A stretch of 45,027 nt of DNA from a virus. Both the position numbers and the translations under genes were made by a program. The notes beneath the pieces are model-generated. The model saw only the letters and a list, made by a program, of their open reading frames with translations. It did not search any database and was not told the origin of the DNA. The first letter of the stretch is position 1; each line of letters starts with the position of its first letter. The stretch lies in the IMG/VR virus record IMGVR_UViG_3300022693_001595, positions 1 to 45,027 of that record. One strand, given 5' to 3'. Positions 145 through 45,027 of the stretch are shown here, piece by piece.

Positions 145-611
145 AAGCAATGAATCATGACAGTGATCATAATCGTTTCTTCTTTGAACAGCGCCATAAA
201 TACAATGAAAAATTAACTGGTGCAAACATCAAAGTATTAACTAACAAGGGTAATCACAAAGGATTTACAAGCGCCGTTATTCGTCATGTAAACAAGCCTG
301 AAGATATTACTTATATTAACAAAGGCGATATAATTATTATTCCAAACGCTTCACCAGCTTTTGAAGCAGTTGCTTACAAGTGCGCTGAAAACGATTGTGT
401 ACTTATAACTGAAACAGGTGGCTCATTGTGTCACTTGGCTATTGTAGGTCGTGAATATTCGTTGTGCTTGGTTTTATTACCTAATGCAAGCAAGCGTTAT
501 CCTATGGCAAGCAGCGCAAAAATTAATTTAGAAGAAGGCAGAATTGAAGCGCTTGAAGTTCCTATTGAATTATTGATGAAAATGAAATTAACTGGCATGA
601 GGTATAGATAA
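3..611 (+). CDS. 3' part of phosphohistidine (PEP-utilising mobile domain) protein
   Basis: This is the C-terminal part of the 498-residue protein that starts at 43998 and crosses the contig junction. In full-length numbering, residues about 370-470 look like the swivelling phosphohistidine domain of PEP synthase, pyruvate phosphate dikinase and enzyme I. There is a GDIIIIPNASPAF strand-turn, then CVLITETGG, then SLCHLAIVGRE, with His440 in the place of the phosphorylated histidine of the family signature GGxxSHxAIVARE. In the known enzymes this domain carries phosphate between an ATP-grasp domain and a substrate or PEP domain. Neither partner is visible here, so catalysis alone is unlikely. 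The stop overlaps the start of the next gene at 611. The domain call is good; the role is unknown. Confidence 0.75.
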   Translation, partial: PFYRWVLSESTMYDSIEWKCVSPRGSKMGGDDPNHTDWWLFTGLELGEAMNHDSDHNRFFFEQRHKYNEKLTGANIKVLTNKGNHKGFTSAVIRHVNKPEDITYINKGDIIIIPNASPAFEAVAYKCAENDCVLITETGGSLCHLAIVGREYSLCLVLLPNASKRYPMASSAKINLEEGRIEALEVPIELLMKMKLTGMRYR

Positions 612-42947: not shown

Positions 42948-43156
42948 AAGCATCAAAGATAATTAGTCAATCATGTTGTGGTCAGGGTTTGCCTATTGAT
43001 GCAACAAAGCCAAAACTTGTTGTTATGGTTGAAAACATTGAACGCGAAAATGAAAGGCTTATTGTTGAATTGGCTGAATTGAATGAAGCTAAAAAGAATC
43101 GATTTACTTTCTTTGTTTGTTTCTGGTTCTTTTTTTGTTTGCTGGTTATTACCTAA
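42944..43156 (+). CDS. Small membrane-anchored coiled-coil protein
   Basis: A 70-residue protein. A helix with KLVVMVENIERENERLIVELAELNEAKK (in part: RENERLIVELAELNEAKK) is followed by a hydrophobic end (FTFFVCFWFFFCLLVIT) that would sit in the inner membrane as a C-terminal anchor. It overlaps the preceding stop by four bases and the DUF1367 start by one. Role unknown. Confidence 0.65.
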   Translation: MKASKIISQSCCGQGLPIDATKPKLVVMVENIERENERLIVELAELNEAKKNRFTFFVCFWFFFCLLVIT

Positions 43157-43743
43157 TGGCTGAAGTTAATTTCATAAAAACATCAACTGGCCTTGTTCCG
43201 GTATCTGAAGCTGATAAAGAAATTTATGATAAGTGGAAACTTGGCCGCGTTATTTGTGGCAAGTTTACGCAATCAAGGAACTATAAATATCATAAAAAAT
43301 TCTTCGGCCTGTTGAATTTGGCATTCAATTATTATGAACCCTCTTCCGGTGTTTTAACTAACGATGAAAAGCGCATTGCAACAAAGATATTTCAAACGCT
43401 TGATTCAGCTTCAAAAGGTAGCGGCGTAATGCTTGATTGGGGGCGTGAGTTCATGAGGACTGAAAGCCAGTTAAGAAAATCACAAATAGAAAACATTCAA
43501 AAAGCCTTTGAACCATTCCGCGAAGAAATGACTATTGCCGCCGGATATTATGACGAGGTGAGGACACCTGTAGGTATTAAAAAATACGCGCGTTCAATAT
43601 CCTTTGCTTCAATGGATGAACTGCAATTCCGTGAGCTATACAAGGCTTTATTCAACACGCTTTGGCGTTTCGTCCTATCAAGATACTTTAAAAATGAAGC
43701 TGAAGCTGAAGATGCTGCTTTGATGATGTTAAATTACGTTTAA
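43156..43743 (+). CDS. DUF1367 family protein
   Basis: The ATG at 43156 overlaps the previous stop (TAATG); upstream in-frame starts encode part of the membrane gene. The 195-residue protein has FIKTSTGLVPVSEADKEIYDKWKLG (in part: STGLVPVSEADKEIYDKW), SRNYKYHKKFFGLLNLAF and ARSISFASMDELQFRELYK, matching DUF1367. This family lies in nin-like regions of lambdoid phages and may bind DNA in recombination; no function is proven. Confidence 0.85.
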   Translation: MAEVNFIKTSTGLVPVSEADKEIYDKWKLGRVICGKFTQSRNYKYHKKFFGLLNLAFNYYEPSSGVLTNDEKRIATKIFQTLDSASKGSGVMLDWGREFMRTESQLRKSQIENIQKAFEPFREEMTIAAGYYDEVRTPVGIKKYARSISFASMDELQFRELYKALFNTLWRFVLSRYFKNEAEAEDAALMMLNYV

Positions 43744-43827: not shown

Positions 43828-43995
43828 ATGAAAAAACAACGCCCTTTTTTACACGAAAATAAAGATAATTTAAAACCTATGTTTGTTTATTCTGCTAATA
43901 GCTTATTTGATATAAATAGCATTCTTGGCAATAAATCAAAAGTCTACCACGCAACATTACAATCAGGTTTATTGATTGTTTTTTACAAGGATTAA
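43828..43995 (+). CDS. Small hypothetical protein
   Basis: A 55-residue protein starting MKKQRPFLHENKDNLKP, with CTAAGG eight bases upstream. It is polar at first and strand-rich at the end (YHATLQSGLLIVFYKD). It lies three bases before the phosphohistidine-domain gene. The 84-base gap before it contains a long-range inverted repeat (AGGTTGT / ACAACCT). Confidence 0.6.
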   Translation: MKKQRPFLHENKDNLKPMFVYSANSLFDINSILGNKSKVYHATLQSGLLIVFYKD

Positions 43996-43997
43996 TC

Positions 43998-45027
43998 ATG
44001 AATGTTAATTTTACAGTTGAGGGTGATTTTATTACTGATCACTTTCGCTCCCTTATTCGTGAAGAAAATTATCGTGGTGCAATTGATGATTTAAAATCTT
44101 CCATGATTGGAATGAATAGCGATCAGGCTATTGAAATTCTTTCAGGTAAAGCACAATTAACAAAAGATAATTTCTTTGTTGAAGATGATAAATATAAATG
44201 TGACGAATGGTTAAGGAAACAATACTTTCCTTATTTTTATAATGTTGTTTACCGTAATAAAAAGTTTTATAAGGCTTATGGCGAAGTTAAAAGCCTTAAC
44301 AAGAGTGATGTTGATGTGGCAATGGGTTTGCACAAGTATGAAACATTACCATTTGACAAAGGCGGTCTTGATTACTGCTTAAACTTCAATAGCCAACGTG
44401 CAGAGACATATTTAAAAAACTTTGGTGACATTGCCGTGTTTACTGAAAGTGGTCACAAGTGGCTTTTAATGCAGGAAGTTAATGTTGATTACCCTATTTG
44501 GCTAAAAGGCGAAGAACTAAACCACGTTGTTGATTTATTAATGAGAGATAGCTATTCATTTGATGGTTCTGATCTTGATGAAATTGAAGAAATACGAAAA
44601 CTTGTAGAAGCTGAAAGAAGCGCTGAAATGTATGACATAGCAGGAGGAAACGCATTAAATCAATTAGGTATTGATGTTGACGCAATGAATACCAATGCAA
44701 TGATCCAATCCACTAACGTTGTTGATGAATACCTTAAAGATTCTAGAAAAGTAGATATGATCAATGAATCTGATGGTGGTTGGGATCATATTAAATCGGC
44801 AATAAGCGCACAATCTGAAAATCATGGCGGTTGGTTGACGTTAAAAAATTCTTACAACAAAGCTGAATATACAATACCTAAAAACCCATTTTATCGTTGG
44901 GTGTTATCTGAATCAACGATGTACGACTCGATTGAATGGAAATGTGTTAGCCCTCGCGGATCAAAAATGGGCGGTGACGATCCAAACCACACTGATTGGT
45001 GGTTATTTACTGGCTTAGAATTAGGTG
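43998..45027 (+). CDS. 5' part of phosphohistidine (PEP-utilising mobile domain) protein
   Basis: The ATG at 43998 starts a 498-residue protein whose frame runs off the window and continues at base 3. The N-terminal half (about residues 1-300) is not a known kinase: there is no ATP-grasp loop or PEP-binding barrel. It has DEWLRKQYFPYFYNVVYRNK, an acidic helical region (DLDEIEEIRKLVEAERSAEM) and, before the junction, SENHGGWLTLKNSYNKAEY. The histidine domain is at 370-470 (see the entry at 3-611). The unit may accept phosphate from a host or separate enzyme, or it may bind a host phosphocarrier. Confidence 0.75.
   Translation, partial: MNVNFTVEGDFITDHFRSLIREENYRGAIDDLKSSMIGMNSDQAIEILSGKAQLTKDNFFVEDDKYKCDEWLRKQYFPYFYNVVYRNKKFYKAYGEVKSLNKSDVDVAMGLHKYETLPFDKGGLDYCLNFNSQRAETYLKNFGDIAVFTESGHKWLLMQEVNVDYPIWLKGEELNHVVDLLMRDSYSFDGSDLDEIEEIRKLVEAERSAEMYDIAGGNALNQLGIDVDAMNTNAMIQSTNVVDEYLKDSRKVDMINESDGGWDHIKSAISAQSENHGGWLTLKNSYNKAEYTIPKNPFYRWVLSESTMYDSIEWKCVSPRGSKMGGDDPNHTDWWLFTGLELG
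44884..45027. repeat. Right copy of 144-bp terminal overlap
   Basis: Identical to bases 1-144. It shows the ends of the contig are the same molecule position. The frame of the gene at 43998 passes through it without change, so there is no real break in that gene. Confidence 0.95.

Follow-up and report, generated by a model that had tools for sequence, protein, structure and literature searches.

A head-plus-swivel protein family of phages that points to an undescribed phosphate-transfer enzyme

Cells employ swivel dikinases in central metabolism, to inactivate antibiotics and to break down aromatic compounds. The motif T/SxxGGxxxH is the reported signature of the swivel domains of these enzymes (PMC12167813). 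In the two-component dikinase HpeHI, HpeH carries a head and a swivel domain while HpeI is a lone ATP-grasp, and changing the swivel histidine to glutamine abolishes activity (PMC12167813). Rifampin phosphotransferase (RPH), by comparison, fuses ATP-grasp, RIF-binding and His domains in a single chain (PMC4844700). Here we compare with these systems a protein of a marine phage, encoded at the ends of the IMG/VR virus contig IMGVR_UViG_3300022693_001595; this whole stretch of 45,027 bases is called the window below.

Bases 1-144 of the window are an exact repeat of bases 44884-45027. Identical contig ends usually indicate that an assembly is circular or terminally redundant, and the record is probably a complete genome of one of these two kinds. 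The original prediction correctly recognized that the gene of interest crosses the contig ends, but it placed the second segment at 3-611 and so included the duplicated bases 1-144. Because the 144-base overlap is exact, the gene in fact runs from 43998 to 45027 and continues at 145-611. The joined gene is open across the contig ends for 498 codons, with zero interruptions, and yields a protein of 498 aa. Its first segment encodes the head, which consists of an N-terminal helical part, a variable middle and a helix/hairpin region and includes an invariant K/D/H/D/W motif; the bases of this motif recur at 81-116 of the window through the terminal overlap. A small open reading frame lies directly upstream and may be co-transcribed with the swivel gene. 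The features, with the source of each in brackets, are as follows.

43828-43995, plus strand: small ORF of 55 aa directly 5' of the swivel gene (ORF listing)
43998-45027, plus strand: 5' part of the joined gene, its first 343 codons and one base (terminal overlap, family alignment)
44964-44999, plus strand: head motif, codons 323-334, KMGGDDPNHTDW (alignment of 37 sequences)
145-611, plus strand: 3' part of the joined gene, the end of the head and the C-terminal swivel domain (terminal overlap)
318-476, plus strand: core of the PF00391 mobile (phosphohistidine swivel) domain (profile matches, folds of homologue models)
408-434, plus strand: TETGGSLCH, codons 432-440, with the His440 codon at 432-434 (translation of the joined gene)

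The protein is a member of PF00391 by its score, its T/SxxGGxxxH motif and the swivelling beta/beta/alpha fold of homologue models. PF00391 matches residues 402-454 with E 1.4e-5 and 25 bits, against a curated cut-off of 23.1, and reaches 28.7 bits in a whole-genome scan of the window. TETGGSLCH fits T-x-x-G-G-x-x-x-H and puts His440 in the active place, which bears out its first reading as the mobile phosphohistidine signature of PEP synthase and PPDK. Searches of the PDB with family profiles matched the swivel domains of PEP synthases (E 1.8e-8 and 2.6e-12) and also RPH and pyruvate kinase C-domains, which together with PEP synthases lie at E 1e-10 to 1e-12; only the swivel was matched in these searches, and nothing was found for the head. 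The family thus joins PEP-synthase-type domains rather than an unrelated group, and GG435-436 and His440 are present in 37 of 37 aligned members although most of the swivel domain has diverged. His440 is the predicted site of phosphorylation.

Statements about fold rest on models made for two homologues, with mean pLDDT of 70 and 82. In these two models the swivel matches aconitase X, Enzyme I, RPH, pyruvate kinase and PPDK, and likewise UPF0107. With the improved model (pLDDT 82) RPH is the best match (E 5e-5) and PPDK is matched too, the cleaner matches covering 94-104 columns at 2.7-3.7 A. RPH, PPDK and pyruvate kinase are matched over the swivel only, and the head fold has no match among solved structures. 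A search of a viral fold library with the head returned family members and a few weak matches, some of them apparently other swivel proteins. Weak swivel-fold matches in BFVD, namely G3MBK5 (Gp139 of Bacillus phage G, 365 aa), A0A2H4PQU5 (118 aa) and A0A411BJN5 (399 aa), suggest that there may be more lone-swivel phage families.

These matches bear on whether the swivel is catalytic at all, since the GG-x3-H loop might instead have a structural or ligand-binding role while the protein works through its head, as a binding or regulatory protein. The extension of Geobacillus stearothermophilus pyruvate kinase is among the best matches both by sequence profile (E 2e-11) and by fold (rank 3), and such extensions can keep the His region without a clear catalytic role (PMC12428139). 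Aconitase X (its small subunit) and UPF0107 match by fold as well, and a partner ATP-grasp is missing from most carriers. However, pyruvate kinase extensions are reported to be always fused to the kinase and never free-standing (PMC12428139), and no pyruvate kinase domain was found in our protein. The retention of the histidine in every aligned member of an otherwise diverged domain also speaks against a purely structural loop, as does a catalytic-looking ATP-grasp that adjoins the swivel gene in one relative. We therefore consider a non-catalytic swivel unlikely, yet the strongest competitor to a catalytic one.

The head is conserved in its own right. In an alignment of 37 family sequences with a median pairwise identity of 28%, the residues that never change (37 of 37) are P294, W301, W314, K323, D327, H331, D333, W334, G435, G436 and H440, and they fall into two groups, one being the phosphohistidine loop and the other a site within the final ~100 head residues. 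The constancy of the head motif is partly selected for among the metagenomic members, which were fetched by head-motif patterns, but nine members found by tblastn (L002, L004, L005, L007, L008 and L050-L053) also keep the head and His invariants, and the His loop never served as a search seed. Shortened members (L022, L052, L070 and L085) retain just the C-terminal ~100 residues of the head together with the swivel; thus the region that holds the two sites is the working core.

By sequence, the head has no relative in the PDB, Pfam, NCBIfam or PADLOC. Weak matches to RdfA, trypsin and RIB43A were dismissed as apparent products of chance or of coiled-coil similarity, and the PADLOC anti-phage defence models gave zero matches to the protein. 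An ATP-grasp (PF01326) and a PEP-binding barrel (PF02896) are both absent from the protein and from the rest of the 45-kb genome. The head is therefore as it was first described, of unmatched fold and devoid of ATP-grasp and PEP-binding domains, and the absence of any obvious pathway from the genome also holds. Calling the protein a lone carrier, on the other hand, was too narrow: the carrier domain is real, but it is joined to a conserved head with a second invariant site, and two relatives encode an ATP-grasp.

Stand-alone PPDK_N ATP-grasp genes occur in 2 of ~38 carrier records, which we label G029 and G009; the window genome encodes none. In G029 the ATP-grasp gene (L045:6562-7392) begins 6 bases beyond the stop codon of the swivel gene (L045:5059-6552), on the same strand, and its product of 277 aa matches PF01326 with E 7e-48 and contains the GGK, VRSS, IEW and LQxR motifs. 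The ATP-grasp of G009 (247 aa) is encoded elsewhere in the genome from the swivel gene. In a scan of 2.9 million contigs this stand-alone type turned up in just 22, so that with ~30 carriers the chance expectation of co-occurrence is ~0.0002, or roughly tenfold more, a few thousandths, if the large contigs are allowed for, figures that are a rough guide and not a test because both co-occurring ATP-grasp genes were used to build the query. As for other donors, no PEP barrel (PF02896) was found in any carrier record tested and no HPr (PF00381) in 28 carrier records. PPDK_N is widespread, being present in 13 of 14 control genomes. Since the window phage has no ATP-grasp of its own, the host would need to supply the donor.

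The reading we favour, and to which we give somewhat better than an even chance, is that the protein is a head-plus-swivel phosphotransferase resembling HpeH, or the portion of RPH made up of its RIF-binding and His domains. By analogy, an ATP-grasp of the PPDK/PEP-synthase type would charge His440 in trans, the charged swivel domain would swing back to the head, and the phosphate would pass to a small molecule at or next to K323, D327, H331, D333 and W334. The ATP-grasp would be phage-encoded in a few relatives and host-supplied in the window phage, the latter being the weakest step. An acceptor role for the head and a small-molecule substrate are predictions of the same scheme. The observations on which the proposal is built are the domain, its fold in homologue models, the invariant residues, the linkage of head and swivel, the lack of a PEP barrel and the adjacent ATP-grasp in one relative. 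Against it stand a partner in just two of ~38 carriers, the lack of a conserved neighbour and a head with no detectable relation to the RPH substrate domain or to any solved fold.

It could also be that no ATP-grasp is needed. A self-contained transphosphorylase would bind both an acceptor and, as donor, a phosphorylated metabolite at the head, with His440 shuttling the phosphate between them, and the K/D/H/D site might be used in each of the two half-reactions. HpeH alone moves phosphate from 4-phosphoacetophenone to acetovanillone (PMC12167813), and the rarity of partner genes among carriers fits such a scheme. But the net reaction of HpeHI requires both components, and the gene that adjoins the swivel gene in G029 encodes an ATP-grasp, which leaves this the least probable of the explanations considered here.

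A further alternative is that the phage turns host phosphate carriers to its own ends, the swivel taking phosphate from Enzyme I or HPr of the sugar or nitrogen PTS, or blocking PEP synthase, and so acting as a phosphate sink or decoy to shift carbon metabolism in the infected cell. Enzyme I N-terminal domains do match by fold (E 5e-3 to 8e-3), and most carriers, having no donor of their own, would need a host donor if the histidine is charged. Enzyme I is, however, a far poorer match than PEP synthase, RPH and PPDK; a pure decoy would leave the second invariant site of the head without a role; and the sole partner seen in carrier phages is of the ATP-grasp type, neither HPr nor a PEP barrel having been found. 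This makes a host hijack quite improbable. No evidence turned up for PEP sensing or for a connection between the protein and the host PTS. The conserved head, its second invariant site and the ATP-grasp in two relatives together favour dikinase activity over PEP sensing or PTS theft; among the functions originally proposed, then, small-molecule phosphotransfer in the manner of RPH is preferred and the other two are disfavoured.

The distribution of the family gives a broader context for this phosphotransferase reading. The window protein falls in PHROG 11532 (E 1.5e-34), which is annotated as of unknown function, and tblastn against named phages recovered 40 records, all but two annotated as hypothetical. 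The carriers include the phiCbK group of jumbo Caulobacter phages, in which the phiCbK copy is annotated as hypothetical only, as well as Seuss, Brevundimonas phage Bajun, the Vibrio phages VP-1/VAP7, D93 and 1.232.O, and virus Rctr197k. Scans of IMG/VR yielded ~30 different contigs, with lengths up to 578 kb and including some of the isolates just named, and more distant copies lie on megaplasmids of Pseudomonas, Variovorax, Acidiphilium and Rhizobium. Across 84,980 bacterial and archaeal genomes, scanning by pattern gave just one match (none in the first scan, one in the second), in a Planctomycetota bin, and since its contig carries a VapE-like gene the match is probably phage; a bacterial origin of the family was set aside on these grounds. 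On that contig (L086:9293-10506) the swivel gene is followed by a gene for a 210-aa protein of unknown type and by a weak match to YfbR-like nucleotidases (E 1e-3), with stops and starts that overlap.

Between the closest relatives, L009 and L010, the C-terminal part shows dN 0.041 and dS 0.553, which is clear, strong purifying selection. L010 (6001-7439), which is 91% identical to L009, has a frameshift near residue 237 that may be a sequencing error or decay. A chance match or a misread frame is ruled out by the open join, the PF00391 score, the conservation across 37 members and the dN/dS.

DUF1367/NinB (43150-43743) lies upstream and NinG (1728-2336) downstream, as these neighbours had been named from the start, with Dam farther upstream. 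The clear neighbours common to the window and a Vibrio relative are only the ordinary Dam and NinB genes, and no conserved neighbour genes were found within 6 kb of family members. The large terminase of the window has its closest counterparts in Vibrio phages (54-57% identity). The stretch 816-1208, which lies two genes past the swivel gene, encodes a small protein whose CxxCxGxG zinc motif is DnaJ-like (E 6e-5, under the cut-off). No description of the family was found in the open-access literature; the Seuss genome paper makes no mention of it, and term searches of phiCbK papers were also negative. The suggestion that the function is undescribed therefore holds for the annotation libraries and open-access papers searched. 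Beyond the PHROG 11532 entry, our results add a residue map and a link to ATP-grasp proteins.

Phages also encode swivel proteins of another kind. The Vibrio phage 'PPDK' (phrog_18609; vB_VneS_J26/sm030 type, PMC12038007) resembles our protein in being a phage-encoded swivel protein, but there ATP-grasp and swivel are fused (697 aa), the C-terminal part is different and the neighbour is a dual-specificity-type phosphatase. The idea that the sm030 protein is our head fused to an ATP-grasp was rejected, as a family search of the sm030 record was negative. The sm030 gene (L115:3784-5877), annotated as PPDK, has PF01326 and PF00391 and no PF02896 in its C-terminal part of ~200 residues, and its assignment deserves a check; it adjoins members of phrog_17568 and phrog_20946. 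Two other phage contigs (L120:6633-10679 and L121:6575-10368) carry an operon with a free-standing swivel domain of ~104 aa (PF00391 E 3e-22), a SprT-like protein, a phrog_20946-like protein, a dual-specificity-type phosphatase (phrog_17568), a protein of ~130-190 aa and a stand-alone PPDK_N. Taken together, the genes on these three contigs look like an undescribed phage dikinase-phosphatase module.

Among the described systems, the family comes closest to HpeHI, CreHI and PpsAB (PMC12167813). As in these, all full-length members have a head followed by a swivel with T/SxxGGxxxH and no ATP-grasp in the chain, and as in HpeH a cysteine precedes the histidine (C439-H440 here, C580-H581 in HpeH). 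A separate ATP-grasp is a further likeness to HpeHI, but one limited to G029, where it is adjacent, and G009, where it is distant; the window genome departs from the HpeHI type in encoding no such partner. The head is not detectably like an RPH substrate domain, in a comparison made with RPH structures, and the genes sit on phages and megaplasmids, not in catabolic operons. Since the partner is missing from the window genome and the head is a different one, we do not assign the family to the two-component small-molecule dikinases. Like RPH (PMC4844700), to whose His swivel the improved model is structurally closest, it has a swivel of the phosphohistidine type, but it consists of head and swivel only, and the head is another. 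It shares PF00391 and the place of the histidine with PEP synthase, PPDK and Enzyme I, yet differs from the first two in having neither PF01326 nor PF02896 in chain or window genome, from PTS Enzyme I in the lack of a PEP barrel (in the records tested) and of an HPr partner (in 28 records), and from the pyruvate kinase C-terminal extension in not being fused to pyruvate kinase.

Dozens of phages that are unrelated to one another carry this head-swivel pair with the same key residues, which suggests a phage enzyme of phosphate transfer that is so far undescribed and whose ATP-using half is probably borrowed. A fuller version, in which these are phage-specific split phosphohistidine dikinases with a new head fold that use the ATP-grasp of the host, or in a few cases their own, and phosphorylate a small molecule of host or phage during infection, is tentative and has less than an even chance. 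The presence of the family in the well-studied phiCbK makes its phosphorylation target directly testable, and the gene pair of G029 is a ready in vitro system. If this reading is true, phages have evolved their own branch of swivel-dikinase chemistry, one that is widespread, has a two-site core and is nearly absent from cellular genomes.
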